A stretch of DNA of 34,679 nucleotides from Alphaproteobacteria bacterium (lineage in GTDB: Bacteria > Pseudomonadota > Alphaproteobacteria > Acetobacterales > Acetobacteraceae), in the NCBI GenBank assembly GCA_026400775.1, contig JAPLOK010000263.1, forward strand, positions 1 through 34,679, in the 5' to 3' direction. Both the position numbers and the translations under genes were made by a program. Below the pieces are notes generated by a model, which worked only from the letters and a program-made list of their open reading frames with translations, had not been told where the DNA came from and did not search any database. Within the stretch, counting starts at the first letter, position 1; each line of letters opens with the position of its first letter. Shown piece by piece: positions 6,499-22,102 of the stretch.

Positions 6499-6504
6499 GC
6501 AAAG

Positions 6505-6786: not shown

Positions 6787-6787
6787 G

Positions 6788-6857
6788 GAGCATGAACCGC
6801 AAAGGCGGACTCGCCGACGCGGTGAAGCATTCTCGCACAACGACCACAGCGTGATCC
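6788..6857. repeat. Dispersed repeat A, copy 2
   Basis: Same-orientation copy of 6429-6498, with a shared core CGCCGACGCGGTGAA followed by CATTCTCGCACAACG. It truncates the aminotransferase remnant on its left, and its right end merges into the strong hairpin at 6846-6878. In translation, both copies give the same minus-strand peptide style (RRRxRLCGSCS), which is a consequence of the DNA repeat and not a sign of coding. Confidence 0.7.
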
Positions 6858-6878
6858 CGTGTTGCGGGATCACGCTGT
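6846..6878 (-). terminator. 14-bp perfect hairpin after the deaminase gene
   Basis: ACAGCGTGATCCCG and CGGGATCACGCTGT form a perfect 14-bp stem around the loop TGTTG. On the minus strand it lies 20 bp after the stop of the 8-oxoguanine-deaminase-like gene, where a terminator belongs. No run of T follows on that strand, so classical intrinsic termination is uncertain; it may instead be the structured end of repeat A. Confidence 0.5.
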
Positions 6879-6898
6879 AGCCCCGCGGCCGAGGCGCC

Positions 6899-8215: not shown

Positions 8216-8228
8216 CATGCTCCTCCAT

Positions 8229-8254
8229 GCGCGGCGCTGCGGGAAGCGCCGCGC
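8229..8254. promoter_or_regulatory. 5'-UTR hairpin ahead of the deaminase gene
   Basis: GCGCGGCGCT and AGCGCCGCGC form a perfect 10-bp stem with loop GCGGGA, immediately upstream of the minus-strand GGAGGA ribosome site (8221-8226). It lies in the ~250-bp divergent region 8219-8471, which should carry promoters for both the deaminase and the plus-strand operon. The same region holds a direct repeat TGGTTGATC at 8358-8366 and 8415-8423, a possible regulator site. No riboswitch family is recognised. Confidence 0.35.
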
Positions 8255-8471
8255 CGGGAGGTGCTTTCGCCCGGTCTGGCGCTGCTGGGAATATCCCACC
8301 TGTCTCCGGCGATGCCCGCGCGTGTCGATTTGCCCATTTTCTGGTCGCTGCGCTGCCTGGTTGATCCATCGTGCGGCGAGGCGCCCAATATTGCGGCGTT
8401 TTGTGGCGCTGCATTGGTTGATCTCATGGCCCGTGCCGGGTCTCCTCCGTCGCGCTGACAGGAGAGTTTCG

Positions 8472-9473
8472 ATGCGCCATTCCCCGCTTTCACGCCGCGC
8501 GATCGGCGCGATGCTGGCCTCGGGCCTCGCCGCGCCGGCCTTGGCCCAGGGGCCGCAGCCATTGCGCCTCATGCTCGACTGGCTGCCCAATGGCGATTAC
8601 GGCGCCTACTACTTGGGGATCGAGCGCGGCTTCTGGCGTGATGCCGGCATCGCACTGACCATTGAGCGCGGCTTCGGCTCCTCCGATACCGTCACCAAAA
8701 TCGCCGCCGGCACGGCGCCCTTCGGCCTCGCGGACATTGCCGCGCTGATGGCCGGCCGCCTCCGCGGCCAGGTGCCGGTCAAGGCCGTCGCACCCATCTA
8801 CACCCGGCCGCCGCACGCGATCTTCACCCTCGACGGCCCGATCCGCAGCTTCAAGGACCTGGAAGGCCGCAGCCTCGCCGGCGCGCCGGGCAGTTCCGTG
8901 CGCGTGATGCTGCCGCTGGTGCTGCGGCGGAACAATGTCGACATCGCCCGCATCAACATGATCAACAGCGAGCCCGCGACCATGGTGCCGCTGCTGATGA
9001 CCGGCCGCGCCGATGCGGTGACCAGCTTCATCACCAACACGCCGCGCTTCGAACAGCAGGCGCGCGCGATCAACCGCGGCATCCGCCCCTTGCCCTTCCA
9101 CGACACCTTGGAAATCTACGGCAACTGCCTCATCGCCTCCGAGGCGACGCTGGCGCAAAGCCCCGACCTGGTTCGCCGCTTCACCATTGCAATGATGCGG
9201 GCACTCGGCGCCGCGCGCGAGAATCCGCGTGCCGCGATCGAGGCTATGATGCGCGTCGTGCCTGGCCTGAATGCGGAGATCGACACCGGCCAGCAGGAAA
9301 TCGTCAACAGCCTGACCTTCGACAGCGCCGTGGCCCGCGCCAACCCGACCGGCAGCTGGGATGCGCCGCAGCTGCGCCGCACCTGGGAAGCGGTGGCCGA
9401 GGCGCAGGGCTTCGACCTCGCGCAGGCCGATGCGGAAAGCTTTGTCGCGCGCGGCTTCACCGCCGGTGCCTGA
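8472..9473 (+). CDS. ABC transporter substrate-binding protein, NMT1/THI5-like
   Basis: A periplasmic binding protein of 333 aa for an importer of the nitrate/sulfonate/thiamine-precursor class. The N-terminus MRHSPLSRRAIGAMLASG has a twin-Arg-like pair and a signal peptide ending ALAQ. RLMLDWLPNGDYGAYYLG is the characteristic NMT1-domain start, followed by RGFWRDAGIALTIERGFGSS and GTAPFGLADIAALM. It starts at an ATG eight bases after AGGAGAG. It is the first gene of a seven-gene plus-strand operon, and its stop overlaps the ATPase start by 8 bp. The ligand is unknown; the following Mo hydroxylase and the upstream purine-type deaminase suggest an N-heterocycle. Confidence 0.92.
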   Translation: MRHSPLSRRAIGAMLASGLAAPALAQGPQPLRLMLDWLPNGDYGAYYLGIERGFWRDAGIALTIERGFGSSDTVTKIAAGTAPFGLADIAALMAGRLRGQVPVKAVAPIYTRPPHAIFTLDGPIRSFKDLEGRSLAGAPGSSVRVMLPLVLRRNNVDIARINMINSEPATMVPLLMTGRADAVTSFITNTPRFEQQARAINRGIRPLPFHDTLEIYGNCLIASEATLAQSPDLVRRFTIAMMRALGAARENPRAAIEAMMRVVPGLNAEIDTGQQEIVNSLTFDSAVARANPTGSWDAPQLRRTWEAVAEAQGFDLAQADAESFVARGFTAGA

Positions 9474-10281
9474 CGCGGGCGGCGTTCTGCCCGCCATCCG
9501 CTTCGGCGCCATCCGCCACGCCTACCCGACGCGCGATGGCGGCGAGGTGCTGGCGCTGGATGGCATTGACCTGACCGTCCGCCGCGGGGAATTCGTCGCC
9601 CTGGTCGGCCCTTCAGGCTGCGGCAAATCCACGCTGCTGCGGCTGCTGGCCGGGCTGGAAAAACCCACGCGCGGCATGGTCGAGGTGGAGGGCCTGACCC
9701 CCGATGCCGCCGGCGAGATGGTGGGCCTGGTCTTCCAGAAACCCACCCTGCTCGACTGGCTGACGGTCGAGCGCAACATCCTGCTGCCCGTGCGCATCCG
9801 TCGCGGCCGGCCCGGCCCCGCTGATGTCGCCGCCGCGCGCCAGTTGATGGCCATGACCGGCATCGCGGGGTTCGCACAACGGCATCCTTCGGAACTCTCG
9901 GGCGGCATGCAACAGCGCGCCGCCATCTGCCGCGCATTGATCCAGGACCCGGAAGTGCTGCTGATGGATGAACCCTTCGGCGCGCTGGACGCGCTGACGC
10001 GCGAGGAGATGTGCTTCGAATTGCTGCGCCTGTGGTCGGAACGGCGCAAGACCATCCTCTTCGTCACGCATTCCATCCCCGAAGCCGTGCTGCTCGCCGA
10101 CCGCGTGGTGGTGATGGCGCCGCGCCCGGGGCGCATCGCCGCCGAAATCGTGGTCGATCTGCCCCGCCCCCGCGGCCTCGGCACCATGGCCGATCCCGCC
10201 TTCCAATCCGCCACGCAGCGGATCCGCGAATTGATCTATGGCGATGCCGCGCGCGCGGCCGCTACGGCCACCACCCTGTGA
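9466..10281 (+). CDS. ABC transporter ATP-binding protein (nitrate/sulfonate/taurine type)
   Basis: The ATPase of the importer, 271 aa, at the cytoplasmic face. Walker A is GPSGCGKSTLL, the Q-loop is GLVFQKPTLLDWLTV, the signature is LSGGMQQRAAICRAL, and Walker B plus D-loop is VLLMDEPFGALDALTRE; the switch His is in TILFVTHSIPEAV. The frame is open further upstream, but homology begins at PAIRFGAIRHAYPT, so the GTG at 9466, overlapping the previous stop, is the likely start. The next gene begins by a GTGA overlap at 10278. The close match to SsuB/TauB/ThiZ-type ATPases fits the NMT1-type binding protein. Confidence 0.94.
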   Translation: MPDAGGVLPAIRFGAIRHAYPTRDGGEVLALDGIDLTVRRGEFVALVGPSGCGKSTLLRLLAGLEKPTRGMVEVEGLTPDAAGEMVGLVFQKPTLLDWLTVERNILLPVRIRRGRPGPADVAAARQLMAMTGIAGFAQRHPSELSGGMQQRAAICRALIQDPEVLLMDEPFGALDALTREEMCFELLRLWSERRKTILFVTHSIPEAVLLADRVVVMAPRPGRIAAEIVVDLPRPRGLGTMADPAFQSATQRIRELIYGDAARAAATATTL

Positions 10282-11096
10282 CAGCCGAACGCCTGCTGCC
10301 CGCGCCATCGCCGGCCATGCGCGCCTGGTTCGCCATGCGCGGTGTGGTGGTGCCCTGCCTCACGCTGGCGCTGCTGCTCGCCCTGTGGGAGGCCGCGGTG
10401 CGCGGCTTCGCGCTGCCCGTCTTCCTGCTGCCCGCGCCGTCGCGCATCTGGGCGGAGATGCTGGTGATGCGGCCGCATCTGCCGGCCAATATCCTGGCCA
10501 CTCTGGCCACTGTGGCGCTGGGCTTCGTCGCCTCCGTCATGCTCGCGGTGCCGATCGCGGTGGCGCTTGCATCATCGGCCATGGTGGCGCGCGCCAGCTA
10601 CCCGCTGCTGCTGATGACGCAGTCCACGCCCATCGTCGCCATCGCGCCCATCCTGGTGGTCGCCTTCGGCACCGGGCAGCTCTCGCGCACCATGGTGGCC
10701 TTCCTGATCGCCTTCTTCCCGCTGTTGGTCTCCACCGTGACGGGGCTGCTGGCCGTCCCGCGGGAGGTGCAGGATCTCTCGCGCTCGCTGCGCGCTGGGT
10801 TCTGGCAGGATCTGTGGCTGGTGCGGCTGCCCTCGGCCATGCCCTTCGTCTTCTCGGGGCTGAAGGTCGCGATCACGCTGTCGGTGATCGGCGCGGTGGT
10901 GGCGGAATTCGTCACGGCCAATGCGGGGCTGGGCTACCTGATCACCCAGAGCACCGCCTTCTTCAACACGCCGATGGCCTTCGTCGCGGTCATCCTGTTG
11001 GCGGCGATGGGCATTTCGCTGTTCGGTCTGGTCGTGCTGGTCGAACGGTTGTTCTTCCCCTGGTCCGCGCGCGCGGGCCGACCTGAGGCGCGCTGA
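10278..11096 (+). CDS. ABC transporter permease (SsuC/ThiX-like)
   Basis: An integral membrane permease of 272 aa. Hydrophobic segments include VVPCLTLALLLALWEAAV near the N-terminus and several in NILATLATVALGFVASVM and onwards. The cytoplasmic EAA loop that docks the ATPase is PREVQDLSRSLRAGFWQDL followed by VRLPSAMPFVFSGLK. It starts with GTG at 10278 in a 4-bp overlap with the ATPase stop. It forms a complete importer with the two genes before it. The molybdenum hydroxylase genes follow after 3 bp, so uptake and oxidation of one substrate are probably co-transcribed. Confidence 0.93.
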   Translation: MTAERLLPAPSPAMRAWFAMRGVVVPCLTLALLLALWEAAVRGFALPVFLLPAPSRIWAEMLVMRPHLPANILATLATVALGFVASVMLAVPIAVALASSAMVARASYPLLLMTQSTPIVAIAPILVVAFGTGQLSRTMVAFLIAFFPLLVSTVTGLLAVPREVQDLSRSLRAGFWQDLWLVRLPSAMPFVFSGLKVAITLSVIGAVVAEFVTANAGLGYLITQSTAFFNTPMAFVAVILLAAMGISLFGLVVLVERLFFPWSARAGRPEAR

Positions 11097-11099: not shown

Positions 11100-11846
11100 A
11101 TGGCCCAGATCACGCGCGCCATCAGCATCGCCGATGCGCGGGCCGCCATGGCCGCAGGCGCGCGCCCGGCCGCGGGCATGACGCTGCTGGCGCTGGAATG
11201 GCACGCCGCACCGCCGCAGGGTGCATTCTGCGACATCTCCGCGATCACCGCGCTGCGTGGCATCGCGCCGGTCGATGCGGGCCTGCGCATCGGCGCACTG
11301 ACCAGCCTGGAGGCGATGCGCCGCGACCCTTCGCTGCGCGCGGGCTGGCCCGCCATCACCGCCCTGCTCGACAGGATCGGCGGGCTTGGCGTGCGCGCGC
11401 AGGGCACGCTGGGCGGCAATCTCGGCTGGGGCGCGGGCGATCTCGCGCCTGTCATGCTCGCCGCCGATGCGCGGGTGCAGCGCGATGCAGGGCTGATCGA
11501 AAGCGTCACCTTGCCGCGCGACGGCTTTACCCTCTTCGCCGAGAAGATCGGCCATCGCGAGGCTTTCTCGCCCACGCTCATCACCATCGCCGGCGCGGTG
11601 CAACTGGCGGGCACGCGCATCGCCGCGCTCCGCCTGGCGGTGGGCGGCGGCCCTACTGCAGCGCAACGCCTGCCGCAGGCTGAGGCTGCGCTGCTCGGCG
11701 CGGATGTCGCGCAGCTCGACTGGCGCGCGGAGGGCGCGCGTATCGCAGCCACCATCGCGGCCGGCACCGATGCGCTGGCCTCTGCCGCGCATCGCGCGCG
11801 TGTCGCGGGCCGCGCTCTGGCCTATGGCCTGGCGGGGCTGGCATGA
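11100..11846 (+). CDS. Molybdenum hydroxylase FAD-binding subunit (XDH family, CoxM-like)
   Basis: The medium, FAD-carrying subunit of a xanthine-dehydrogenase-family enzyme, 248 aa, which passes electrons from the Fe-S subunit to an acceptor. The FAD site motif is RAQGTLGGNLGWG (about residues 100-112), and GAGDLAPVMLAADARV is the usual next segment; LRIGALTSLEAM is the T-x-x-x-L region. At 248 aa it is shorter than most CoxM proteins (about 280) and its first FAD loop is abbreviated. The start ATG at 11100 is 3 bp from the permease stop. The stop overlaps the large subunit as ATGA. Confidence 0.87.
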   Translation: MAQITRAISIADARAAMAAGARPAAGMTLLALEWHAAPPQGAFCDISAITALRGIAPVDAGLRIGALTSLEAMRRDPSLRAGWPAITALLDRIGGLGVRAQGTLGGNLGWGAGDLAPVMLAADARVQRDAGLIESVTLPRDGFTLFAEKIGHREAFSPTLITIAGAVQLAGTRIAALRLAVGGGPTAAQRLPQAEAALLGADVAQLDWRAEGARIAATIAAGTDALASAAHRARVAGRALAYGLAGLA

Positions 11847-13984
11847 GCACGCGCCTGCCACTGCTGACCGATATCGTCTGCCCCAGCGCGCTGTATGGCG
11901 TGGTGCTGCGCAGCCCGCATCCGCATGCGCGCATCCTCGCGCTCGACCTCGCCGCCGCGCGCGCCATGCCGGGCGTGCATGCGGTGCTGAGTGCTGCCGA
12001 TATTCCGGGACCGCCCTGCTTCGGCGTGCGCATCGCGGACCAGCCCGTGCTCTGTGCCGATATCGTGCGCTGCGTGGGCGACCCGGTGGTGGCGATCGCG
12101 GCCGCGACGCGTGCGCAGGCGCTGGCCGCGCGCGATGCGCTGCACGTGGAATGGCAGGTGCTGCCGGTGCTGGATGACGCCGCCATGGCGCTCGCAGAAG
12201 GTGCGCCGCCATTGCACCCGGCGGGCAATCTGCTGCACCGCGTGGCGCATGCGCATGGTGATGTGGCGGCAGGCTTCGCCGCCGCGGCGCATGTCGTGGA
12301 GTTGCGCCTGGACACGCCGCGCCAGGTGCATGCCTATATCGAGAATGAAGGCGCGCTGGCCGTGCCGGGTGCCGATGGCGTGCTGACCATCCATGCGCCA
12401 GGCCATTGGGCGGAGGCCGAGCGCAGCACCATCGCCGCGATCCTGGCCGAGGATGCATCGCGCCTGCGCGTCATCGCGAGCCCCGTGGGCGGCAGTTTCG
12501 GCGGCAAGGATTGCCTGCACGCACAACCGCTTGCAGCCCTGCTGGCACGCGCCACCGGCCGCGCCGTGCGCCTGCACTGGACCCGAGAGGAGAGCTTCGC
12601 GATCGGCGTGAAGCGTCACCCCTTCAGCATCACGATGCGCTCGGCCTGCGACGCCGCCGGCCGGCTGCTGGCACATCAGGTGGCGTTGCTCGTCGATACC
12701 GGCGCCTATGCGCAGCACGGCCCGGAAGTGCTGGAAACCGCCTTCGAGAATGTGCAGGGCCCCTATGCCTGGCCTGCTTTCCATGGCGAAGGCCGGCTGG
12801 CCTACACCAATAACGGCATCAGCGGCGCCATGCGCGGCTTCGGCGCGATGCAGGTGCAGGTGGCGCTGGAGCAGCAGATGGATGCGCTGGCCGCGCGCCT
12901 GGGCATGTGCCCGCTGCGCTTCCGCCAGCGCAACCTGCGCGCCGATGCCGCACCCGGGCAGCTGGGCCAGACGCTGGTCGCCCCATCGCATGCCGCACTC
13001 GCCGCGGCCCGCCTGACGCCGCCGCCGCCGCCGCGCGATGCAGGGCGCTGGCGCATCGCCCATGGCATTGCGCTGGTGGAGAAGGGCGAGGGCTTCGCGC
13101 AGGGCGGCCCCAACCAGGGCGCGGCGCGGCTGACCATCGAGGCCGATGGCCGCATCTGGGTGCGCCTCGGCCTGTCGGAACTGGGCCAAGGCCTGCCGGA
13201 GGCCGCCAGCATCGCCGCATCGCGTATCCTGGGCTGCGCCTTGCAGGACATCATGGTCGGCCTCGGCGACTCCGCGACCACGCCCGATGCCGGCCCGCTG
13301 GCCGCCAGCCGTGGCGCGGGCATCGCCTGGCGCGCGATCCTGGATGCACGGCCGCATTTCCTCGATGCGATCGCCGCGCGTGCAGCGGCGCTCGGGCTTT
13401 CGCCGGGGCTGCGACTGGGCGCCGGCGGGCTGTGGCGCGAGGGCGGCAATGCGCCCGAGATTCCCCTCGCCGCCCTGGCTGGCGTGGCGGCCGACGGTAT
13501 CGCCGCGGCGGTGGAGACCCGCACCGGCCACGGCGCCGTGCATGCCGCCTTCACCGCCTGCGCCGCCGAGGCGACGGTGGCGCTGGACCGCGTGACCGGC
13601 CGCGCGCGTGTGCTGCGCGTGAAGCTGTTGCCGGTCTCCGGCCCCGTGCTGTCCGAGGCCGGGCTGCGCGCACAGATGGAAGGCTGTGCCGCCATGGCGA
13701 CCGGCTTCGCGCTGACCGAGGAACTGCCGGCGCAGCATGGCCGCTTCCGCGCGAGCAATCTCGACACCTATCTGGTGCCCACGCTGGCCGACACGCCGCA
13801 GGTCGAGGTCGAGGCCATCGAAGACATTCCGCCCGATGCCCTGGGGCCGCGCGGCGTGGGCGAGATCGGCGTGAACGCCGCCGCGCCGGCCATCGTGACC
13901 GCGCTGATGGCGGCACTCGGCCGGCCCTTGGCCGCCCTGCCCGCCACCGCCGAGCGCAACCTAGCCGCCTGGGAGGAGGCATGA
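11843..13984 (+). CDS. Molybdenum hydroxylase large subunit (Mo-cofactor binding, XDH family)
   Basis: The catalytic molybdopterin subunit, 713 aa, which hydroxylates an N-heterocycle or aldehyde with oxygen from water. VVLRSPHPHARILALDL begins the conserved a/b hammerhead. ASPVGGSFGGKDCLHAQP is the GGxFGGK Mo-cofactor motif, GAMRGFGAMQVQVALEQQ the R-G-F-G-x-x-Q motif, and GPRGVGEIGVNAAAPAI carries the catalytic Glu. Some 20-30 residues common at the start (the R-x-D-G-x-x-K-V-T-G segment) are absent, and the translation starts at ATG 11843 inside the ATGA overlap. The three-gene order FAD-Mo-FeS is typical. Substrate not determined; purine or pyridine-like is likely from context. Confidence 0.92.
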   Translation: MSTRLPLLTDIVCPSALYGVVLRSPHPHARILALDLAAARAMPGVHAVLSAADIPGPPCFGVRIADQPVLCADIVRCVGDPVVAIAAATRAQALAARDALHVEWQVLPVLDDAAMALAEGAPPLHPAGNLLHRVAHAHGDVAAGFAAAAHVVELRLDTPRQVHAYIENEGALAVPGADGVLTIHAPGHWAEAERSTIAAILAEDASRLRVIASPVGGSFGGKDCLHAQPLAALLARATGRAVRLHWTREESFAIGVKRHPFSITMRSACDAAGRLLAHQVALLVDTGAYAQHGPEVLETAFENVQGPYAWPAFHGEGRLAYTNNGISGAMRGFGAMQVQVALEQQMDALAARLGMCPLRFRQRNLRADAAPGQLGQTLVAPSHAALAAARLTPPPPPRDAGRWRIAHGIALVEKGEGFAQGGPNQGAARLTIEADGRIWVRLGLSELGQGLPEAASIAASRILGCALQDIMVGLGDSATTPDAGPLAASRGAGIAWRAILDARPHFLDAIAARAAALGLSPGLRLGAGGLWREGGNAPEIPLAALAGVAADGIAAAVETRTGHGAVHAAFTACAAEATVALDRVTGRARVLRVKLLPVSGPVLSEAGLRAQMEGCAAMATGFALTEELPAQHGRFRASNLDTYLVPTLADTPQVEVEAIEDIPPDALGPRGVGEIGVNAAAPAIVTALMAALGRPLAALPATAERNLAAWEEA

Positions 13985-14445
13985 TGCCCACCACGCTGGA
14001 TGGTCGCGCCATTCCCGAAGCGCTGTTCGCGGCCGACCCATTCCGCCCGCTGATCGCGCTGCTGCGCGAGGAATGCGGCGCGATGGAGCCGAAGCATGGC
14101 TGCGGCATCGGTCGCTGTGGTGCCTGCCTGGTGCTGCTGGACGGCGTGCCCGCCGCGGCCTGCCTGACGCCGGCGCATGCCGCCGCCGGCCGCGCCATCA
14201 CCACCGCCGATGGCCTGCCATCTGCACCGGCACAAGCGGTGCGCGCGGCGCTGGAGGCGGAGCGCGCCTTCCAATGCGGCGCATGCGCACCCGGCGTGGT
14301 CCTGGCCCTGACCTGGTTGCTTATCACGCATCCCGACACCGCAGCGCCCGAAGCTGAGGCGCTACTGGTCGGCCAGATTTGTCGCTGTGCCGCACATGGC
14401 GGCCTGCGCCGCGCCATCGCGCAGCTTTTCCCCCAACCCACCTAG
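13981..14445 (+). CDS. Molybdenum hydroxylase [2Fe-2S] subunit
   Basis: The small iron-sulfur subunit, 154 aa. The plant-ferredoxin-type cluster is bound by HGCGIGRCGACLVLLDG plus a later Cys (AAACLTPA). The second cluster by FQCGACAPG and QICRCAAHGG. Both cluster motifs are complete, although the second differs slightly from the common QCGYCTPG and CRCTGY. The N-terminal strand region before the first Cys is short. ATG at 13981 lies in an ATGA overlap with the large subunit (a second ATG follows at 13984). It completes the three-subunit enzyme; no XdhC-type maturation gene is present in the window. Confidence 0.92.
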   Translation: MMPTTLDGRAIPEALFAADPFRPLIALLREECGAMEPKHGCGIGRCGACLVLLDGVPAAACLTPAHAAAGRAITTADGLPSAPAQAVRAALEAERAFQCGACAPGVVLALTWLLITHPDTAAPEAEALLVGQICRCAAHGGLRRAIAQLFPQPT

Positions 14446-14456: not shown

Positions 14457-15485
14457 ATGATGCAGCGTCGTAGCCTTCTCACCTTGCCGGTCGCAGCCCT
14501 GGCCGCACCGGCCGCATGGGCACAGCCCGCGCGGCAGAATCTGCGGTTCGCGGTGGACTGGGTCATCCAGGTCAACCATTCCTGGGCCGTGCTGGCCGCA
14601 CGCCGCGGCTATTTCCAGCAGGAAGGGATCAACGCCACGGTCGAACGCGGCTTCGGCTCCGGCCAGACCATCCAGCAGGTGGCGGCCGGCGCATTGCCGC
14701 TGGGCTTTGCCGACATCCCGACCGCGATCCAGTTCGCCATGCGCAACCCGCAGGTCGGGCTGCGCGTGGTGGGCGTCATCTTCGACGGCTCACCGCTGGT
14801 GCTGACGGTGGATGCCAATGGCCCGATCCGCTCTGCGCGCGATGTGGAGGGCCGGCGCATCGCAGCGCCCGAGGCCGATGCCGGCCGGCAGATGTTCCCC
14901 GCCTTCGCGCGTGCCGCCGGTGCGGATCTCTCGCGCGTGGAATGGGTGAACGTGACTGGCCAGTTGCGCGAAGCGATGCTGGTGCGTGGCGAGGTGCATG
15001 GCATCACGGGCTTCATCACCTCGACCATCATGGGGCTGGAATCAATCGGCATGCCGGCCGCGCGGCAGCGGCATTTCCGCTATCGCGAGGCGGGGCTGCC
15101 GTTCTTCTCGGGCGGGCTGATCACCACGCAGCGCTTCGCCGCCGAGAACCCGGCGCTGCTGCGCGGCGCGGTGCGTGCCTTGATGCGCGGCACGCAGCAC
15201 ATGGCGCGCGACCCCAATGACGCGATCGCCGCCGTGCGCGAACAAGAACCGCTGACCGACCCCGCCGTGGAGCGCCGCCGCTGGGAGGTGGTGCGCGACG
15301 AGATGCTGGTGACCGAGAATGTGCGCGCCAATGGCCTGTCCTTCGTCGATCCCGCGCGCATGCAGCGCAACATCGACATCGTGCGCGACACCTTCGGGCT
15401 GACGCAGCCCTTCACGCCGGCCGATATCTGGGATGGCAGCTTCCTGCCGCCGGCAGCCGAACTGGCGCTGCCGCCCACGACGTGA
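14457..15485 (+). CDS. Second ABC substrate-binding protein, NMT1/THI5-like
   Basis: A periplasmic binding protein of 342 aa with signal sequence MMQRRSLLTLPVAALAAPAA cut near AWAQ. LRFAVDWVIQVNHSWAVLA is the NMT1-domain opening, followed by GYFQQEGINATVERGFGSGQ and LPLGFADIPTAIQFAM, clearly homologous to the first gene of the operon but diverged. GGAG lies five bases before the ATG. The operon thus has two binding proteins for one ATPase-permease pair, which could widen substrate range. It ends 3 bp from the stop of the converging operon, leaving no room for separate terminators. Confidence 0.9.
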   Translation: MMQRRSLLTLPVAALAAPAAWAQPARQNLRFAVDWVIQVNHSWAVLAARRGYFQQEGINATVERGFGSGQTIQQVAAGALPLGFADIPTAIQFAMRNPQVGLRVVGVIFDGSPLVLTVDANGPIRSARDVEGRRIAAPEADAGRQMFPAFARAAGADLSRVEWVNVTGQLREAMLVRGEVHGITGFITSTIMGLESIGMPAARQRHFRYREAGLPFFSGGLITTQRFAAENPALLRGAVRALMRGTQHMARDPNDAIAAVREQEPLTDPAVERRRWEVVRDEMLVTENVRANGLSFVDPARMQRNIDIVRDTFGLTQPFTPADIWDGSFLPPAAELALPPTT

Positions 15486-15488: not shown

Positions 15489-16091
15489 TCAGCCGTGGTC
15501 GGGCATGCCCGGCATCCGTGTGAAGCCGGGCTGGGCGCGCAGCCGGCGCGCCCAGCGTCGCAGCCGCGGGAACTCCTCATGTTCGCAGCCCCAGTCGCGC
15601 GAGAGCTGGAAGGCCGGGAACAGCGCGATATCGGCAATGCCGGGCATGGCACCCAGCAACCAGTCGCGGCTGCGATCGGCCATGTGTTCCTCCAGCAGGC
15701 GCAATGCAGCGCGCGCGGCCGCGGCGTGAAGCGCAGGCCCGCCGAACAGCGCCGCCTGACGGGCCTCGCGCGCCGCCCACATCTCGCGCGCCGCGAAGAA
15801 CAGCCAGTCGGCCTGTGCCGGGTCATCGGACCAGAAGCGCCGCGCCGGGTCATGGCGGAAGGCCAGCCGCGCCAGGATCGCCTGCGGGTCGCGCAGCGTG
15901 ATGCCACCGGGTTCTTCCCACAGGGGCAGGCGCGCGAGCGGGTTGCGGGCGCGGAAGGCCAGGCTTTCCGGCTCCCGGCCCGGCAGCACATCCACCGCGA
16001 CGCGCGCATGCGGCAGGCCCATCAGCGACAGGCCCAGACGGACCTTGTAGGCCTCGTCATCCAGCTCCCAATCGTGCAGCGTGCCGATCAT
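15489..16091 (-). CDS. GST-like protein, possible oxygenase partner (NdmE-like role)
   Basis: A glutathione-S-transferase-fold protein of 200 aa. The N-terminal thioredoxin-like half starts LHDWELDDEAYKVRLGLSLMG, and NPLARLPLWEEPGGITLRDPQ contains the cis-Pro region and the E/D-S/T-x-A-I position (here LRDPQAI). The helical C-terminal half includes WLLGAMPGIADIALFPAFQL, with the conserved N-capping Asp of GSTs. It is the last gene of the minus-strand operon and overlaps the oxygenase catalytic gene by ATGA. In the methylxanthine N7-demethylase, NdmE is a GST-like protein that holds a Rieske-less catalytic subunit and its electron donor together. The same gene company here suggests a structural role and not detoxification (inference). 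Confidence 0.82.
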   Translation of the reverse strand: MIGTLHDWELDDEAYKVRLGLSLMGLPHARVAVDVLPGREPESLAFRARNPLARLPLWEEPGGITLRDPQAILARLAFRHDPARRFWSDDPAQADWLFFAAREMWAAREARQAALFGGPALHAAAARAALRLLEEHMADRSRDWLLGAMPGIADIALFPAFQLSRDWGCEHEEFPRLRRWARRLRAQPGFTRMPGMPDHG

Positions 16092-16939
16092 GCGCCGCCC
16101 TCCGTGGTGCCGAAGCGCAAGCCCTTCTCCTTCAGCCAGCGCCGATAGACGACCGAGGACGCATCCGCTCGCGTCGGGATTTCCGCGCGCGGTTCCAGCG
16201 GCAAGGTCAAGGGCCGCTGGTTCTCCACGATGATGCGGTCCTGCAGGAAGATGGTCTGCTCGAAATGCAGCATGGCGCTGTGGGTCGAGATCTCGTCCAC
16301 CAGCCACATGATGGGCAATGCGCGGCACAGCGCCGCTTGCATCGGCTGGATGAACAGCGCGATGCAATCCCGCCTGTGCGGCTGCGAGGGCGCGAAGCGG
16401 TACAGCATCACCACGAAGGGCGAGGGCACGCGGTAGTCGATCTCCATCATCGTGCCGGTGGTGTCGGTCGCCGCCGCGCGCGGCTGCCAGAAGCGGCAGC
16501 CGGTGGCCCAGACCTCATCTGCTTCGCGGTCGATGCCCGAGGGGTAATGCATCACTTCCGTGTGCGGCTCCGCGCCCAGGATGCCGTGATGCACATAGGG
16601 GAAATGCGCCATGTCGAGGAAGTTCTCCACGATGCGCAGGCCCGAAGCGTGGATCGTGGTCCACCCACAGGGCACCACGCGGCGATCGGTTTCGGCAGCC
16701 TCGGCGATGTGCACGATGTCCCGCCGCGGCTGGCCCAGCGTGGTAAAGAGCAGCCCGTAGGCTTCGCGCGCCGGCAGCGCGGCGCCGGTGCTGTCGCGCG
16801 GCGTGGCGATGCCGGCCTCGCGTTGCAGCGTGATCTCCTCGCCCAGCAGCTGTGTGCATTGCGGCGTGGCGCCGAGCTCGGCGGCCGTCGCGACCGCGTA
16901 CCAGTCATTCAGCGCGACCGCATCGGTGGTGCGGGTCAT
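16088..16939 (-). CDS. Oxygenase catalytic subunit lacking the Rieske cluster (NdmC-like architecture)
   Basis: A ring-hydroxylating/N-demethylating oxygenase alpha-type protein, 283 aa. The C-terminal catalytic domain is complete: ENFLDMAHFPYVHHGILG has the mononuclear-iron His pair (H112 and H117 or H118) with bridging D109, and TIFLQDRIIVENQRPL supplies the third-ligand Asp. The N-terminal ~90 residues begin like a Rieske domain (LNDWYAVATAAELG then LLGEEITLQREAG) but contain no CxH or CxxH motif, so no [2Fe-2S] cluster can be bound. Electrons must come from another protein; the next upstream gene encodes exactly a stand-alone Rieske protein. Overlaps are ATGA on both sides. This split matches NdmC, whose Rieske domain sits on NdmD. 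Substrate unknown. Confidence 0.87.
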   Translation of the reverse strand: MTRTTDAVALNDWYAVATAAELGATPQCTQLLGEEITLQREAGIATPRDSTGAALPAREAYGLLFTTLGQPRRDIVHIAEAAETDRRVVPCGWTTIHASGLRIVENFLDMAHFPYVHHGILGAEPHTEVMHYPSGIDREADEVWATGCRFWQPRAAATDTTGTMMEIDYRVPSPFVVMLYRFAPSQPHRRDCIALFIQPMQAALCRALPIMWLVDEISTHSAMLHFEQTIFLQDRIIVENQRPLTLPLEPRAEIPTRADASSVVYRRWLKEKGLRFGTTEGGA

Positions 16940-17508
16940 GGCGCGGCCTCCAGGCTGCGACGCCGGGCGTGCAAGGCTGCGCGCAAGCCGGCCGCGTCCA
17001 ACGGCTGCTCCAGCGCCACGACGTGCCAGGCCGACTGCGTGGCGCTGCGCGGCTGCGGGGCGATCAGCAGCCGCGTGCCGGCGATGGTCTCCTGCCAGGG
17101 CGGGCCCTGGCTGACGGGCATGTCGAGATACAGGCTCAGCACCGGCCAGGCGGGCATGTCGGGCGGTGGCGGCTGTGCCTGGGCCGCCACCCAGACCATG
17201 CCTGCGGCCTCCTGGCAGTGGTGCCGTGCGACGGCGATGGTCGATGGCGGCGAGAGTTCGGGATGCGCTGGAATCGCGCGGCAGCGGCCTTGGCCATTGA
17301 ATTGCCAGCCATGGTATAGGCAGGCCAGCCGGTCGCCGCGCGCGAAGCCGAATGACAGGCGCATGCCGCGATGCGGGCAGCGATCTTCCCAGGCATGGGC
17401 GATGCCGGCGGCGTCGCGCCACAGCACGATCTCCGCGCCGCCCAGCCGCGTGCCGGCGACATCGCCGGCGGCCAGATCATCGCTCAGTGCAACCGCGGTC
17501 CAGGCCAT
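16936..17508 (-). CDS. Stand-alone Rieske [2Fe-2S] protein
   Basis: A 190-aa protein with one Rieske domain: AWEDRCPHRGMRLSFG (C44, H46) and LACLYHGWQFNGQGRC (C63, H66) give the two Cys and two His ligands. Residues 1-110 follow the oxygenase-type Rieske fold. The remaining ~80 residues (LSLYLDMPVSQGPPW to the end) lack the mononuclear-iron motif, so this is longer than a Rieske ferredoxin yet has no catalytic site. It is the complement of the adjacent Rieske-less catalytic subunit, and the two are translationally coupled. It probably passes electrons to that subunit. No reductase gene is present in the window, so the primary electron donor must be encoded elsewhere. Confidence 0.9.
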   Translation of the reverse strand: MAWTAVALSDDLAAGDVAGTRLGGAEIVLWRDAAGIAHAWEDRCPHRGMRLSFGFARGDRLACLYHGWQFNGQGRCRAIPAHPELSPPSTIAVARHHCQEAAGMVWVAAQAQPPPPDMPAWPVLSLYLDMPVSQGPPWQETIAGTRLLIAPQPRSATQSAWHVVALEQPLDAAGLRAALHARRRSLEAAP

Positions 17509-17742
17509 TCAATCCTCTCTCGTCATGCCGCTGACCAGGCAGTCGATCGGGCCCAGCATGCAGGCCATCTCGAAGGCGTCGAGCATCGCGCGCGGACCAT
17601 GCAGCACCGCGCGCGCGCCGCCATGACCGACCTCCAGCATGTCCAGCACCAGGCCCAGCCGTGCCGCGCGGTGGCGCGCGAAACCCTCGAAGCTCGCGGG
17701 CACCAGGCGGCCGTGGAAGTGGAACGCCGCGCGTTCAGGCAT
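17509..17742 (-). CDS. Small acylphosphatase-like protein without catalytic residues
   Basis: A 77-aa protein in the middle of the operon, stop directly abutting the Rieske start and 5' end overlapping the GMC stop by 8 bp. AAFHFHGRLVPASFEGFARH then RAARLGL, GGARAVLHGPRAMLDAF and LGPIDCLVSGM follow the acylphosphatase pattern of strand, helix (VGFRxxxRRxAxxLGL in active enzymes) and alternating strands. The catalytic Arg in the VGFR loop is Glu-Gly here (ASFEGF), and the catalytic Asn (WVxN) is missing. If the fold call is right, it is an inactive relative with a binding or structural job. The match is by eye and the protein is short, so I hold the family only moderately; the gene itself is well supported by spacing. 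Confidence 0.6.
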   Translation of the reverse strand: MPERAAFHFHGRLVPASFEGFARHRAARLGLVLDMLEVGHGGARAVLHGPRAMLDAFEMACMLGPIDCLVSGMTRED

Positions 17743-19195
17743 GGAGCAGGAACTCCGCCGCGCGCTCGCCGATCATCACGCTCGGCGCATGGGTGTTGCC
17801 GGTGGGGATGTGCGGCATGACCGAGGCATCGGCGATCATCAGCGCCTCGGTGCCCAGCAGCCGCAGCCGCGCATCGACGACACTGCCGATGGCGCAACTG
17901 CCGCAGCAATGGAAGAAGGTGGAGATGCGCTGGCGCAGGAAGGCCAGGCCCTGTGCGCGCGAAAGCCGATGCGGCGGCGTCAGAGATGCGGCGACCCAGG
18001 GGCGCAGGGCGGGGCTGGCGGCCAGGTCCTGCACGAGTTCCAGCCCGTCCAGCAGCGCCTGCGCATCGCGCGGATCGTCCAGGAAGTTCGGCTGGATGCT
18101 CAGGCTGCCATCGGCTTCCGGCCGGAGGAATCCCCGGCTGTGCGAGCCCATCAGCCCGGGCGAGAGCGCAAAGACATGCGCTGCGCCATCGGGCACCGGA
18201 CCATGCGCGCCCTGGACCAGCAGCACATGCAGGTCGGGCAGTGCCGCGCCCTGGCTGCGCGCGTTGAGGAAGGCGCGGCCGCCGAGCGAACCCGCCGCGC
18301 CCACCGGCATGCGCGCCGCGAAATTCACGCCGGTCACAAGTGGATGGTCCTGCAGGTTGCGCCCGACGCCCGGCAGCGCCACGCGGCATGGCACGCCGAT
18401 GCGCGCCAGATCCGCCGGGTCACCGATGCCCGAACGCCAGAGCAGCGCGGGCGTGTGGATAGCGCCGGCCGAGAGCACCACGCTCGCATCGGCGCCCAGC
18501 GCCGTGCCGTCGGCCAGTGTGACGCCGGTGCAGCGCGTGCCGGTGAAGCGCAGCGATGCAACCTCGGTGCCGGTGCGCAGCGTGAGGTTGGACGGAGTGG
18601 CGGCCAGGTAGCCATCGGCGCAGGACCAGCGCCGCCCGTCGCGCATGGTCAACTCGCCCATGAAGGCGCCCTCCATGCGCGGTCCGTTATGGTCGGACAG
18701 GATGGCGTGCCCGCATTGCGCAGCCGCCTGCAGGAAGGCCTCGGCCAGCGGATGCGGCGCGGGTGTCTCAAGGCGCAGCGGGCCGCCAGCGCCGCGCCAG
18801 GCATCGGCGCCGCGCACCAGGTCTTCGGCGCGGCGGAAGAAGGGCAGCACGTCGGCGAATGACCAACCTTCGCCCCAGCGGTCGTAATCCGCAGGATGGC
18901 CGCGGTTCCACAGCATGGCGTTGATGCTGGATGAACCGCCCAGCACGCGGCCGCGCGGGATGGGAATCACCCGGCCATCGAGATGCGGTGCGGGTGCGTA
19001 GTCCAGGCCCCAATCATGGGTGCCGCGCAGCAGTTCGACCCAGCGCGCGGGGTCCCGCACCGCGGGGTCGGCGCGCGCATCGAGGCCGGCTTCCAGCAGC
19101 AGCACGCGGCGCGTGCCATCCGCGGCCAGCCGCGCAGCAACCGCGCAGCCGGCGGAACCGGCGCCGATGACGATGTGATCCCAGGTCGGGATCAT
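17735..19195 (-). CDS. GMC-family FAD oxidoreductase (alcohol dehydrogenase/oxidase)
   Basis: A glucose-methanol-choline flavoprotein of 486 aa that oxidises an alcohol. The FAD motif is IVIGAGSAGCAVAARLA with LLLEAG. GRVLGGSSSINAMLWNRGHP is GMC signature 1, and SAGAIHTPALLWRSGIG signature 2. The active-site pair is in FFHCCGSCAIG and PTGNTHAPSVMIGERAA. It lacks a signal peptide and is shorter than choline dehydrogenase (~550). It starts at ATG 19195, 3 bp after the TPP subunit stop. In this operon it could oxidise a hydroxymethyl or aminoalcohol intermediate made by the oxygenase; that is inference. Confidence 0.92.
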   Translation of the reverse strand: MIPTWDHIVIGAGSAGCAVAARLAADGTRRVLLLEAGLDARADPAVRDPARWVELLRGTHDWGLDYAPAPHLDGRVIPIPRGRVLGGSSSINAMLWNRGHPADYDRWGEGWSFADVLPFFRRAEDLVRGADAWRGAGGPLRLETPAPHPLAEAFLQAAAQCGHAILSDHNGPRMEGAFMGELTMRDGRRWSCADGYLAATPSNLTLRTGTEVASLRFTGTRCTGVTLADGTALGADASVVLSAGAIHTPALLWRSGIGDPADLARIGVPCRVALPGVGRNLQDHPLVTGVNFAARMPVGAAGSLGGRAFLNARSQGAALPDLHVLLVQGAHGPVPDGAAHVFALSPGLMGSHSRGFLRPEADGSLSIQPNFLDDPRDAQALLDGLELVQDLAASPALRPWVAASLTPPHRLSRAQGLAFLRQRISTFFHCCGSCAIGSVVDARLRLLGTEALMIADASVMPHIPTGNTHAPSVMIGERAAEFLLHA

Positions 19196-19198: not shown

Positions 19199-19843
19199 TC
19201 AGTTGTGCTCGCTCGGGCCCATGATGACGATGCCTTCGGTCTTCTCGACATGGCGGACGAAAATGTACTTGTCCTCGCGGCCGTCGGAATGCTTGCGCTT
19301 CACGTCGCGCTTGGAACTGCGGTCCACCTTGGCCACCAGCACGAAGGGTTCCTCTGCCGCCAGGCCCTCGGCGCAGAGCCTGTCGAATTCATCGAGGGTG
19401 GTAGCGGTGTGCGCTTGGCGGATGCCGCAGCCACGGGCGATGGCGGCGAGATCCACGCGGCCCAGATGGGTATGTGTGGGCGGGCCGCCGATCGACTGGT
19501 AGCACTCATTGTCCCACACCACGACGAAGAGATTCTTCGGCCATTCATTGGCGAGCGTGGCCAGGATGCCGAGGTTGAACATCAGCCCGCCATCGGTGTC
19601 GAGTGAGACGATGCGCCGGTGCGGCAGGCCGGCCGCCAGCCCGAAGGCCTGCGGCGTGACGCAGCCCAGTTGTTGCTGGAACAGGCTCGCATCGCGCATG
19701 TGCGGCGCGGCGTTGTACCACTCATCCACGCTGGCGCCGAGCGAGAGGATGACGAGCTCCTCGCGCAGCCGGGCTGCGAGCTTGAGCATGCAGTCATAGC
19801 GGGTGAGCGTGCCTCCTATGGGTTGGTCCCCTTGCGCGCTCAT
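19199..19843 (-). CDS. TPP-dependent decarboxylase, PP-domain (beta) subunit
   Basis: A 214-aa subunit carrying the diphosphate-binding domain of a two-component thiamine-pyrophosphate enzyme of the sulfopyruvate/phosphonopyruvate decarboxylase (ComE-like) type. IVSLDTDGGLMFNLG begins the TPP/Mg motif (D-G-G...), and FVVVWDNECYQSIGG provides the distal Asn about 27 residues on. LGCVTPQAFGLAAGLP is the usual approach to that motif. The stop of the alpha gene overlaps its ATG (ATGA). The C-terminal ~50 residues (RSSKRDVKRKHSDGRED and onward) are unusually charged for the family. Substrate, likely a 2-oxoacid, is unknown. Confidence 0.85.
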   Translation of the reverse strand: MSAQGDQPIGGTLTRYDCMLKLAARLREELVILSLGASVDEWYNAAPHMRDASLFQQQLGCVTPQAFGLAAGLPHRRIVSLDTDGGLMFNLGILATLANEWPKNLFVVVWDNECYQSIGGPPTHTHLGRVDLAAIARGCGIRQAHTATTLDEFDRLCAEGLAAEEPFVLVAKVDRSSKRDVKRKHSDGREDKYIFVRHVEKTEGIVIMGPSEHN

Positions 19844-20340
19844 CGCACGACCTCCCCGCCCAGGCAGACGGCCGAGTGGTAATAGGCCGCGTAGGACCAG
19901 GCATAGGCATCGGTGATAGCGCGCCGGATATCGGCCTTCTTGGTGACGATCCGGTGCGGAATGCGCATGGCGTCCAGCAGCGGTTCCATGGTCATGCCAT
20001 GCGGGATGGCCCACCAGTTGTTCTCACCCAGCTCGCCGCGATAGCTCATGATCATCACGACGGGGATGCCCGCACCCATGCCCATGCGCGCCAGCGGTTC
20101 GATCGAGGCGCGAAGGCCCGAATTCTCCATCACCAGCACGGCGCGCTTGCCTGACAGAAACACCCCGCCACAAATCGCCGCACCCTCGCCCTCGTTGGTG
20201 ACGCGGATGGTGCGGATGTCCGGATCAGTGTCCAGCGCCGGATAGAGGCCCCGGAACAGGCTGTCGGGCAGGTAGCAGGCGAGCGATACGCCGGCCTCCT
20301 TCAGACCGGCAAGCACTTCCTGGACGGCGTCTGGCTGCAT
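19840..20340 (-). CDS. TPP-dependent decarboxylase, Pyr-domain (alpha) subunit
   Basis: A 166-aa subunit with the pyrimidine-binding domain, ComD-like. SLACYLPDSLFRGLYPAL near residue 20 and IRVTNEGEGAAICGGVFLSG (Glu50/Glu52 region) match the conserved segment whose Glu activates the TPP aminopyrimidine. AVLVMENSGLRASIEPLARM and IPVVMIMSYRGELGENNWW continue in family order. It is the first gene of the seven-gene minus-strand operon; the ATG at 20340 follows GGAG by nine bases. Together with the next gene it makes one active site across two chains. Phosphonopyruvate, sulfopyruvate or another small 2-oxoacid are possible substrates. Confidence 0.86.
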   Translation of the reverse strand: MQPDAVQEVLAGLKEAGVSLACYLPDSLFRGLYPALDTDPDIRTIRVTNEGEGAAICGGVFLSGKRAVLVMENSGLRASIEPLARMGMGAGIPVVMIMSYRGELGENNWWAIPHGMTMEPLLDAMRIPHRIVTKKADIRRAITDAYAWSYAAYYHSAVCLGGEVVR

Positions 20341-20771
20341 GGGCGGCTCTCCTTCGGGGCCGCATGCTGGCCGTATCATCGGCGCTGGGAAGGGGACCGG
20401 CATGGTCCAAGGTCTTGGTTCGGAAGGCCATTGCCGCAGGCTTGTGCATGGCGCGCGGCGAATGCCCCGCCGCTGAGCCGCGGGGCCATGGCGACAAGCC
20501 GCCCCGGCCCAGCACCTTGCTTCAGGACGCCGCTTCTTCGAACTACTTCAAGGTCTTGCCGCCGCCCATGATCCCGGAGGATAGCGCCGAGCTTTGCGAC
20601 AATAGCCGGAGAGGATGAGCAGGGCGTTGCCTTCCAGCGCCGATCGATCCCTTACGTGCGTGGCGGCGAGGCCGACCGACCAGGACCAGTCGAAAGCCAT
20701 CAGCAGAAAGGTCAGGATCGCGCCATTGGCGTGCGCGCGCCTTTGCCAGGCTGCGAGCGACGCCGCGGGGG
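20341..20771. other. Intergenic region upstream of the TPP/Rieske operon
   Basis: About 430 bp between the operon start and the flavodoxin stop. It must contain the promoter of the minus-strand operon, but I see no clear -35/-10 pair or palindrome. A minus-strand frame at about 20590-20770 reads a hydrophobic stretch (NGAILTFLLMAFDWSWSVG); I recognise no family and it lacks a good start, so I do not call a gene. Confidence 0.4.
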
Positions 20772-21319
20772 TCAACGCGCTGCTTGCCCGAAGGCCAGCA
20801 TCGTCGAGAGATGCGCCTCGGCCTGCTGCGGCGTCAGGCCACCAACGCCGCCGATCAACGTCTCGCGCACCGGCGCGATGCCGCCGAAGCTGAGGATGTT
20901 TCGCCTCAGCGCCTTCACACTCGGGGCACCGAGCCAGCAGCGGAAGACGAAGGCAGGCATGCCCATGGCGGCGACGATCCTTGCAGAGCGGTCCTTGAGC
21001 AGCCCGCCGGAAAGACTGACATCGGGCTTGAAGGCAAAGCCGGGCCGCAATGTCTGCTCCGGAAAGCCCTTGAGCAGCGCGGGCATGCTGCCTAGCCAGA
21101 TCGGATAGATCAGCACCCAATGCTCGGCGTCGAGCAAGGCGTACTGTGCCGCCAGCGCCGCGGCAGAAAGTTCGCCGGTCTGGAGGTCCCCGGGCAGGCG
21201 CAACAGCGACAGGTCAAGCTCAGCAACGCTGAGGCGCGTGACCTGATGCCCGCCCGCGAGCGCACCCGCCGCATAGGCTTCGGTGAGGGCGCAACAGAGC
21301 CGCGCCGCGACCGGATCCG
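20772..21319 (-). pseudogene. NAD(P)H:quinone-oxidoreductase-type flavodoxin protein, N-terminus removed by IS3 end
   Basis: A flavodoxin-fold FMN protein of the KefF/MdaB type. The body is intact: [70 protein letters not shown] and APVRETLIGGVG. The normal first strand and phosphate loop (RILxIxGHPDP) is missing: just before PDP the DNA becomes an IS3-type end whose plus-strand reading is TGACCCTGCCCCCAA (21320-21334). The frame stays open a little way into the IS (an ATG at 21350), so a protein could be made, but without the FMN phosphate loop it is unlikely to work. Confidence 0.75.
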
Positions 21320-21830
21320 GTGACCCTGCCCCCAAGTCGTCCTCGTTCATGAACAGAGGCTGTTGTCTGTATGCCCCTGTCGGGTGGGGGGGCTGCAAAG
21401 GCGTTGGGGGAGAGCACGTTCAAGCTCGTGTGCGGGCGTTGCGTGTTGTAGTCGATCCTCCAGACTTCGATGATTCGGCGCGCGGCAGACAGGCTGCCGA
21501 ACAGGTGTTCGTTCAGGCACTCGTCGCGGAGCCGGCCGTTGAAGCTCTCGACGAACGCGTTCTGGGTCGGCTTCCCGGGCGCGATGTAGTGCCACTCCAC
21601 CTGCCGATCCTGCGACCAGCGCAGGAGCGAGGTCGACGTCAGCTCCGTGCCGTTGTCACTGACCACCGCCAGAGGCTTGCCACTGAGCGCCACAATCGCG
21701 TCGAGCTCCCGCGCCACCCTGGCGCCCCACAGCGACGTATCGGCCACTAGCGCCGGCCATTCGCGCGTAAAGTCGTCCACCACGCACAAGATCCGAAGCC
21801 GCCGGCCGCAGCCCAGCGCATCCGCGCCAC
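21320..21830 (-). mobile_element. IS3-family element fragment with transposase C-terminal part (OrfB)
   Basis: The minus strand encodes the rve core of an IS3/IS407-like transposase: [20 protein letters not shown] (first Asp), [19 protein letters not shown] (second Asp) and [21 protein letters not shown] (catalytic Glu), then [21 protein letters not shown] run of seven G (plus strand, near 21386-21392) shifts the frame; after it, [14 protein letters not shown] reaches a stop at 21347. The N-terminal half is gone: similarity begins only at ADALGCGRR near 21825. The right end is at 21320 inside the flavodoxin gene. The element is dead. Confidence 0.85.
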
Positions 21831-22102
21831 AAGCAAGCGCCATTGCCCTTGATAAACACAAAGCTGCGAACCACCGCATAAACATCCACAGAAAACATCC
21901 CCGGCCGCCCACAAAGCGAACAGCTTATCATTGGACGGGTTTTGCAGCGCCCTTGTCAGCACGGCGCCGACGATCCTGTGGCCTGCTTTGTCACCTCCCT
22001 GCACAATGGCATCGGCACCCTGCGCAACACCTTGGCGGGAGGCGAATAGCGCAGCGCTGCAGCCTGTCCTAACCTGCACAAGCTGCCTGAAGGACACCGC
22101 CT
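21831..22102. other. Unassigned region between IS3 fragment and amidase
   Basis: About 270 bp, less GC-rich than its surroundings around 21840-21930. No frame resembles a known protein, and no matching IS3 left end is visible. It must hold the amidase promoter. A GAAGGACA stretch at 22089-22096 is the likely ribosome site for the TTG start at 22103. Confidence 0.4.

Follow-up and report, generated by a model that had tools for sequence, protein, structure and literature searches.

How would an oxygenase work if its Rieske cluster and its mononuclear iron were supplied by separate proteins? The question is raised by a stretch of 34,679 nt (hereafter the window; contig JAPLOK010000263.1 of assembly GCA_026400775.1, from an alphaproteobacterium of the Acetobacteraceae), in which three adjoining genes on the minus strand encode a free Rieske [2Fe-2S] protein (RSK; 190 aa, 16936–17508), a Rieske-less oxygenase subunit (CAT; 283 aa, 16088–16939) and a GST-like protein (200 aa, 15489–16091), the last in the position of NdmE. 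The best explanation, and a quite probable one, is that the three form one oxygenase: RSK would feed the iron of CAT, the GST-like protein would hold the complex together, and the substrate would be a purine-like heterocycle. A Rieske-less catalytic subunit also occurs in NdmCDE, the 7-methylxanthine N7-demethylase of Pseudomonas putida CBB5, and ndmCDE-like clusters of unassigned function are on record in Sinorhizobium, Mesorhizobium, and others (PMC4408171).

Two Metal Centers on Two Chains

RSK carries the cluster ligands C44-x-H46 and C63-x2-H66, and its residues 3–85 match the Pfam Rieske model (E 1.2e-23); the D-x2-H-x4-H iron motif was sought in the protein and is not there. In CAT that motif is present (D109-x2-H112-x4-H117), together with D234, which from its position we take to be the iron-ligand Asp. 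Residues 97–271 of CAT match VanA_C (E 1e-15), a KshA_C match stays below the cut-off, and the Pfam scan of the protein returned only oxygenase catalytic-domain models, the Rieske model giving no match. Neither RSK nor CAT thus has cluster motif and iron site in one chain, as a single-chain Rieske oxygenase does. The GST-like protein is assigned by Pfam, GST_C_2 (E 3.4e-8) and GST_C (E 2.7e-7) both scoring above their cut-offs and the N-terminal GST models below theirs; the assignment of RSK draws in addition on motifs and predicted structure, that of CAT on these and on a phylogenetic tree. Both junctions, RSK/CAT and CAT/GST, are ATGA overlaps. An original prediction for this DNA had put the three reading frames at the same coordinates, leaving the strand unstated, and had described a complete Rieske site without an iron motif in the first, an iron site without cluster ligands in the second, a GST-like third and ATGA overlaps between them; it had further held that the Rieske domain is free and not fused to a reductase. 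The analysis bears out each of these points, the last because RSK ends at 190 aa.

Conservation and Co-occurrence

CAT-type queries matched 191 places across the loci compared. All 171 Rieske-less places scoring at least 150 bits, which comprise 148 distinct sequences, keep the D-x2-H-x4-H motif; the remaining 20 are 17 Rieske-bearing oxygenases and three short pieces below 150 bits. Rieske-less CATs are found in Alpha-, Beta- and Gammaproteobacteria. Within the first 85 residues of the 148 distinct CATs, C-x-H occurs in two and C-x2-H in two others, both together in none, and D-x2-H-x4-H is found in none of 44 distinct free RSK proteins. H112, H117, D234, and Asp109 are invariant across 45 CAT sequences, and these residues are common to the NdmC-type proteins and one Rieske-bearing relative.

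The two proteins also travel together. CAT and a profile of RSK proteins were run against 299 genomes of the window's order, with presence thresholds placed at score gaps after the scores were known and counts taken among the matches listed. CAT is present in 39 genomes of nine genera with best scores of at least 254 bits; the next matches listed are second copies in genomes G276 and G291 at 127 bits, that of G276 being Rieske-less and inside the CAT clade in a quick tree, and below 127 bits follow oxygenases at no more than 82 bits. With the RSK profile, 40 genomes show 42 places that score at least 174 bits; their stop-to-stop frames span 199–337 residues, apart from one of 543 (G128). From 174 the scores drop to 130 bits, where nearly all listed frames have the length of a full oxygenase. 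CAT and RSK are both present in 39 genomes, CAT without RSK in none, RSK without CAT in one, and neither in 259 (Fisher p 3e-48, with genomes counted as independent and kinship ignored). In G100 and G153 the two genes lie on different contigs.

It might be argued that RSK is an ordinary Rieske ferredoxin serving some other, complete oxygenase, and that linkage has preserved CAT as a dead paralogue. Oxygenase ferredoxins do commonly take the form of a stand-alone Rieske protein, and the window's genome has six further Rieske-domain matches. Against this view stand the iron motif, intact in 171 of 171 Rieske-less places of at least 150 bits, the ligands, all among the invariant columns of 45 CATs, and the presence of RSK in 39 of 39 CAT genomes, in two of them on another contig; RSK is moreover longer than plain ferredoxins by about 70 residues (see below). 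This alternative is accordingly held to be improbable.

A few single cases may be recorded here. G141 is the sole genome of the 299 with a free RSK (C45:15664-16278) and no CAT above threshold. At locus L168 (8751–8879) a 46-residue match to the first CAT gene of Sinorhizobium lies upstream of the surviving second one, which suggests loss of a copy. The CAT relative of L148/L204 (G626:C1:1018795-1019460) has an open frame of 230 residues and matches CAT from residue 58 on only, so its residual Rieske region may be gone.

Phylogeny of CAT and of the Rieske Domains

For the CAT tree, 52 representatives were drawn from the 148 distinct sequences at a limit of 78% identity, some loci being kept by choice; a long-branch Rieske-less sequence (L132_6620) and four long-branch outgroup sequences were left out of the careful version. 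In the resulting tree of 58 sequences, 51 Rieske-less proteins are separated from seven Rieske-bearing ones with support of 100/99.9. The CATs accompanying NdmD-type fusions, 11 in number, group together (92/91), and the window's CAT falls into a clade of 14, termed CAT1 (100/100). NdmC, NdmD, and NdmE were represented by genes of loci L163–L166, assigned by gene order and context, as the records carry generic names; the window's CAT shares 42% identity with the NdmC-type protein of L165 and stands in a different subclade, among different neighbors. Placement with NdmC had been the check proposed for the original prediction, and both do lie in one Rieske-less clade. Read most simply, the tree has the cluster lost once among the sampled proteins and makes NdmC part of a larger group.

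Homologs with an intact Rieske motif inside this lineage would have pointed to local decay, as had been noted beforehand, and were looked for; the nearest Rieske-bearing relatives found (L152–L158; 32–41% identity to the best query) are outside the clade. Local decay of an intact oxygenase is therefore rejected: the iron motif is intact in all Rieske-less places of at least 150 bits, their representatives form one clade, and RSK co-occurs with CAT. The three-part arrangement is beyond chance.

The history of the Rieske domains is less sharply drawn. A tree of 68 sequences set free and NdmD domains apart from oxygenase domains weakly (87/76), and one NdmB-like oxygenase, mislabeled as NdmD-type, fell among the outgroup; with this and one long outgroup sequence removed, the branch separating them from 11 oxygenase domains reached 97/100. 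NdmD-type Rieske domains form one group (96/90.7), that is, one change on the tree. In the best trees they are nested within the free proteins, which do not make up one clade; forcing the latter into a single clade was not rejected (p-AU 0.275), so that the NdmD fusion may have arisen from a free Rieske protein or the other way round.

Predicted Structures

An AlphaFold2 single-chain model of CAT from 45 sequences has a pLDDT of 88.7 and a pTM of 0.89, with weaker blocks at 111–130, 251–260 and the C-terminal tip (average pLDDT 53–64); the model of RSK, from nine sequences of which two are incomplete, reaches a pLDDT of 91.9 and a pTM of 0.86. CAT superimposes on residues 1–334 of the SxtT chain (272 residues aligned, Z 31.9, rmsd 2.1) and thus covers the whole of it, from which the first ~75 residues of CAT look like a Rieske barrel minus its cluster loops. 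RSK aligns with 189 of its 190 residues to residues 10–286 of GxtA (Z 17.6, rmsd 2.7) and to the other complete oxygenases listed at Z 13.8–17.6, whereas the alignment with plain Rieske ferredoxins takes in only 99–100 residues (Z 13.8); RSK has ~70 residues beyond these. Because of the near full-length match to GxtA, the sheet and helix of RSK 121–188 look like a shrunken catalytic domain. In the predicted models, then, the succession of Rieske barrel and helix-grip catalytic fold is present in CAT and, with the catalytic part much reduced, also in RSK, which suggests that both descend from whole oxygenases that lost opposite centers. At the profile level RSK aligns with the N-terminus of NdmD-type proteins over columns 3–220 of 227 (hhalign 100%); the extra domain of NdmD hits CAT at the corresponding strand with a probability of 75.5%, and free RSK hits the extra domain of NdmD with 26%.

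These folds also bear on the idea that a stop or frameshift arising in this lineage split one oxygenase gene into RSK and CAT, as adjacent genes with complementary domains could be taken to mean. Rieske-less CATs in three proteobacterial classes do not fit such a local accident, and since RSK and CAT are each predicted to have their own N-terminal Rieske-barrel region, no single break would yield the pair. A single broken gene is effectively refuted by this overlap of the predicted folds and was rejected; we give it next to no credence.

Gene Arrangements across Bacteria

Four arrangements were met with in the stretch around each CAT gene, to which the following counts are limited, many stretches having a flank of only 1.5 or 6 kb. 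CAT and GST accompany a Rieske-reductase fusion, the NdmCDE form, in Pseudomonas, Klebsiella, Sinorhizobium, and others; free Rieske protein, CAT, GST and a separate reductase share one cluster in L132 (G276) and L204 (G626); a free Rieske protein and GST accompany a CAT-reductase fusion on a Variovorax plasmid (L169, 8322–11469); and a free Rieske protein and CAT occur with no reductase within the stretch in 47 of the 70 distinct CAT genes that have a Rieske gene in the locus, the window included. Counted otherwise, of 148 distinct CAT genes 50 have only free Rieske proteins nearby (three of them with a reductase), 15 only fused ones and five were flagged for both; one of these five is from Variovorax, where the residual fold of CAT itself gave the second match, and the other four belong to loci that break off inside the fusion or were merged with loci of that kind. 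The fusions, which bring parts of the system together in one gene, speak for a single oxygenase. Seen from the side of RSK, all 34 free genes with 900 bases on each side are accompanied by a CAT in the same locus, at a distance of no more than 1.5 kb in 24 cases, and GST lies at most 1.8 kb away from 33 of them, the 34th, from Variovorax, having it 1.82 kb off, behind the fusion.

L118, L067 and the overlapping pair L209/L210 have one RSK and one GST among two CAT genes; one cluster subunit may therefore serve two catalytic subunits. G200 and G291 carry two RSK genes instead. A separate curiosity is the 8-kb contig of L132 (G276:C32), where positions 1145–7696 hold an NdmB-like oxygenase, two each of Rieske-less CATs, free Rieske proteins and GSTs, a separate reductase and pieces of a formaldehyde dehydrogenase, that is, a caffeine-like cluster with all parts unfused.

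Proposed Electron Path and Electron Donor

Ordinary Rieske oxygenases pass electrons from the cluster of one subunit to the iron of the subunit next to it, and an Asp corresponding to Asp109 of CAT links that cluster to the iron. From the observed sequences, gene order, clade and co-occurrence, and from the predicted folds of the single proteins, we infer a complex, an electron path, a role for the GST-like protein, a substrate and a reductase. The Rieske cluster of RSK would take up electrons and hand them on, through the conserved Asp109, to the mononuclear iron of CAT, which would activate O2; the substrate would be hydroxylated and possibly lose an N-alkyl group thereafter. RSK would dock on CAT where a neighboring oxygenase subunit would otherwise sit, and in some clusters a core of RSK and GST is possibly common to two different CATs. 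The GST-like protein would keep RSK and CAT together, in the way NdmE is postulated to stabilize the NdmCDE assembly (PMC4408171).

The first step of this path calls for a reductase, and here the window's genome is peculiar. Its 516 contigs (94.4% complete) were searched for an NdmD-type reductase, for PF00175 and for PF14759, with no match; a dedicated VanB-type ferredoxin-NAD reductase, as expected for a class IA system, is thus not detected there, and separate reductases are found in the L132 and L204 clusters. The reductase part of NdmD was matched at E 1e-5 in 24 of 25 genomes searched, the sole exception being that of the window. Among 15 other CAT genomes of the same family the match is strong in seven (E 1.3e-44 or better) and weak in eight (best E 3e-13 to 1e-8). 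PF14759 was matched in eight of 13 genomes, in seven of these by partial matches only, in frames of 516–615 residues.

Such results lend themselves to another view, namely that CAT is fed by a different donor, be it a flavoprotein, the GST with glutathione, or the molybdenum hydroxylase described below, and that RSK has some other role in the pathway. The undetected VanB-type or AIF-type reductase and the weak matches in eight of the 15 related genomes speak for it; against it stand the precedent of NdmCDE (PMC4408171), the retention of the bridging Asp109 in CAT and the clusters that pair a dedicated reductase with a free Rieske protein. We judge it unlikely, though somewhat less so than the view of RSK as a ferredoxin for another oxygenase.

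The electron path from RSK to CAT can be placed in a wider frame, whose chances of being right or wrong we consider evenly matched. Two reciprocally degenerated copies of one ancestor, one with the cluster and one with the iron, would form with a GST-like clamp a widespread class of heteromeric Rieske oxygenases, in which several interchangeable catalytic subunits, each for its own step in purine-type catabolism, draw on a single cluster subunit; NdmCDE would be the branch with a reductase-fused cluster subunit, and many members would lack a dedicated reductase and use another donor.

The Operon and its Surroundings

Upstream of RSK, also on the minus strand, are four genes that the original prediction did not mention, and judging from the small gaps and overlaps between same-strand genes a seven-gene operon extends from 20403 to 15489, ending with RSK, CAT and GST and probably transcribed as a unit. 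It begins with the two halves of a thiamine-diphosphate enzyme, TPPa (alpha; 19840–20403) and TPPb (beta; 19199–19843, scanned as frame 19199–19867), joined by an ATGA overlap as well; TPPb resembles sulfopyruvate and phosphonopyruvate decarboxylases, both halves scoring below model cut-offs. A GMC-family FAD oxidoreductase, recognized by profile matches, follows at 17735–19195. Directly before RSK is a small acylphosphatase-like open reading frame, ACYP (17509–17742, 77 aa), known from NCBIfam matches of E 0.05–0.16 only and without a match in the Pfam scan; it is a possible extra subunit of the oxygenase. Acylphosphatase-like frames of 75–98 residues precede 28 of 44 distinct free RSK genes and have a common stretch near F-E-M-A-C-x-L-G-P.

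On the other side of the three-gene core an 8-oxoguanine deaminase gene (6899–8320, minus strand; open frame to 8590), possibly of the same pathway as the operon, matches NF006055 with 625.9 bits (cut-off 532). The plus strand carries an ABC uptake system of NMT1/THI5-like binding protein, ATPase and permease (8541–11096, starts approximate); a molybdenum hydroxylase of the xanthine dehydrogenase kind (11100–14445), identified by profile matches, with FAD (11100–11846), Mo (11843–13984) and [2Fe-2S] (13981–14445) subunits, the best model for the Mo subunit being pucD with a score below cut-off; and a second NMT1/THI5-like binding protein (14460–15485) that converges on the GST gene. The gene cluster is flanked by a Mutator-type transposase piece (5–529; a second, overlapping frame at 432–893) and the integrase core of a transposase (21220–21912). 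Further to the right, a TauD-like oxygenase, a luciferase-like oxygenase and a rhodanese protein (26030–30904; the last, at 29240–30904, of 554 residues with at least three rhodanese domains) suggest organosulfur use, and a phage integrase and a phage portal protein at the right end (32891–34667) likely mark the edge of a prophage.

Substrate and Chemistry

Neighboring genes were labeled by their best match to reference genes and counted within 6 kb, bounded by the flanks available. Around 61 CAT1-labeled genes, the window included, GMC oxidoreductase genes occur in 60 cases, amidohydrolase genes (matching those of L118 or L120) in 59, TPP genes in 57, molybdenum hydroxylase genes (XdhMo) in 54 and aldehyde dehydrogenase (ALDH) genes in 48. 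Among 42 CAT2-labeled genes, 35 are near a BMP-type ABC transporter and 27 near a guanine- or 8-oxoguanine-deaminase-type gene. Since 8-oxoguanine deaminase and xanthine-dehydrogenase-like genes are present in the window and deaminase-type genes near CAT2, a purine-like N-heterocycle is the most likely substrate. That it is new relative to NdmCDE is plausible from the neighbors, and for CAT2 the guanine-deaminase-type genes make 7-methylguanine or 7-methylxanthine an attractive proposal; pterins and cytokinins came into consideration as well.

The chemistry is less easily read from the context. N-demethylation by some members of the free-Rieske group is likely, formaldehyde dehydrogenase genes occurring in the clusters L132, L202 and L204. 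Within 6 kb of CAT1 and CAT2 genes there are none (0 of 61 and 0 of 42; those of L204 lie 6.8 kb off), and with the references used no formaldehyde-gene match was found in the window; plain N-demethylation is thus not indicated for the window's CAT1-type enzyme, which may instead hydroxylate a ring or remove a longer N-substituent. The product would feed the conserved TPP, GMC, amidohydrolase, molybdenum hydroxylase and ALDH genes, as the CAT1 neighbor counts would have it. This reading, which is compatible with the three proteins forming one oxygenase, falls just short of an even chance in our estimation, as the nearest characterized relative, NdmC, is an N7-demethylase (PMC4408171) and formaldehyde genes do accompany other free-Rieske proteins.

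The missing formaldehyde genes weigh against the proposal of one oxygenase made of RSK, CAT and the GST-like protein, and so does the undetected reductase. To these must be added that 78 of the 148 distinct CAT genes have no Rieske gene within the stretch compared; that sequence support for a shrunken catalytic domain is weak, the profile probability being 5.6% for the extra domain of free RSK against CAT and 0.1% for those of RSK and NdmD against Rieske-bearing oxygenases; and that the comparison with NdmC, NdmD and NdmE was made with sequences other than those of P. putida CBB5 itself.

Relation to Known Systems and Significance

NdmCDE resembles the window's system in its Rieske-less catalytic subunit (NdmC-type of L163–L165), its GST-like subunit and its supply of the Rieske cluster by another protein, NdmD, which at its N-terminus can be aligned to almost the full length of RSK; in this respect the original prediction, which had assumed the same logic, is supported by the common clade and the GST-like gene of the operon. 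The two differ in that the Rieske domain of NdmD is fused to a reductase, whereas RSK is free and no reductase is encoded in the window's locus; this fusion being a defining feature of NdmCDE, the window's system is set apart from it. SxtT and GxtA (PDB 6wn3, 6wnc, and others) are the top PDB matches of RSK and CAT in sequence and structure but have both centers on one chain instead of two, and a functional link is not implied. The N1- and N3-demethylases NdmA and NdmB (PDB 6ick, 6icl), next-best structural matches of CAT with Z 23–25 and with dicamba monooxygenase near them, belong to the superfamily but are complete single-chain oxygenases. Rieske ferredoxins of three-component dioxygenases (PDB 3dqy, 5bok) are stand-alone like RSK; they feed an oxygenase carrying its own cluster, whereas RSK has an extra domain and a presumed partner without cluster. 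HpxD-type xanthine hydroxylase turned up as a distant match; going by its annotation label alone, it is a Rieske oxygenase with a purine substrate.

The original prediction had called the system possibly undescribed. This stands for the free-Rieske form of an NdmCDE-type oxygenase, of which no description was found in open-access PMC texts, and has to be given up for ndmCDE-like clusters as such, already on record (PMC4408171). What is known is the principle of NdmCDE; what is new is a Rieske partner that often stands free instead of being fused to a reductase. With cluster and iron as separate conserved products, the electron step could be studied with parts freely combined, and a natural precedent would be at hand for modular Rieske enzymes, in which one electron-transfer subunit serves exchangeable catalytic subunits. 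If confirmed, the NdmCDE design would not be peculiar to caffeine eaters, and an uncharacterized purine-type pathway is indicated in rhizobia, methylobacteria and acetic acid bacteria.

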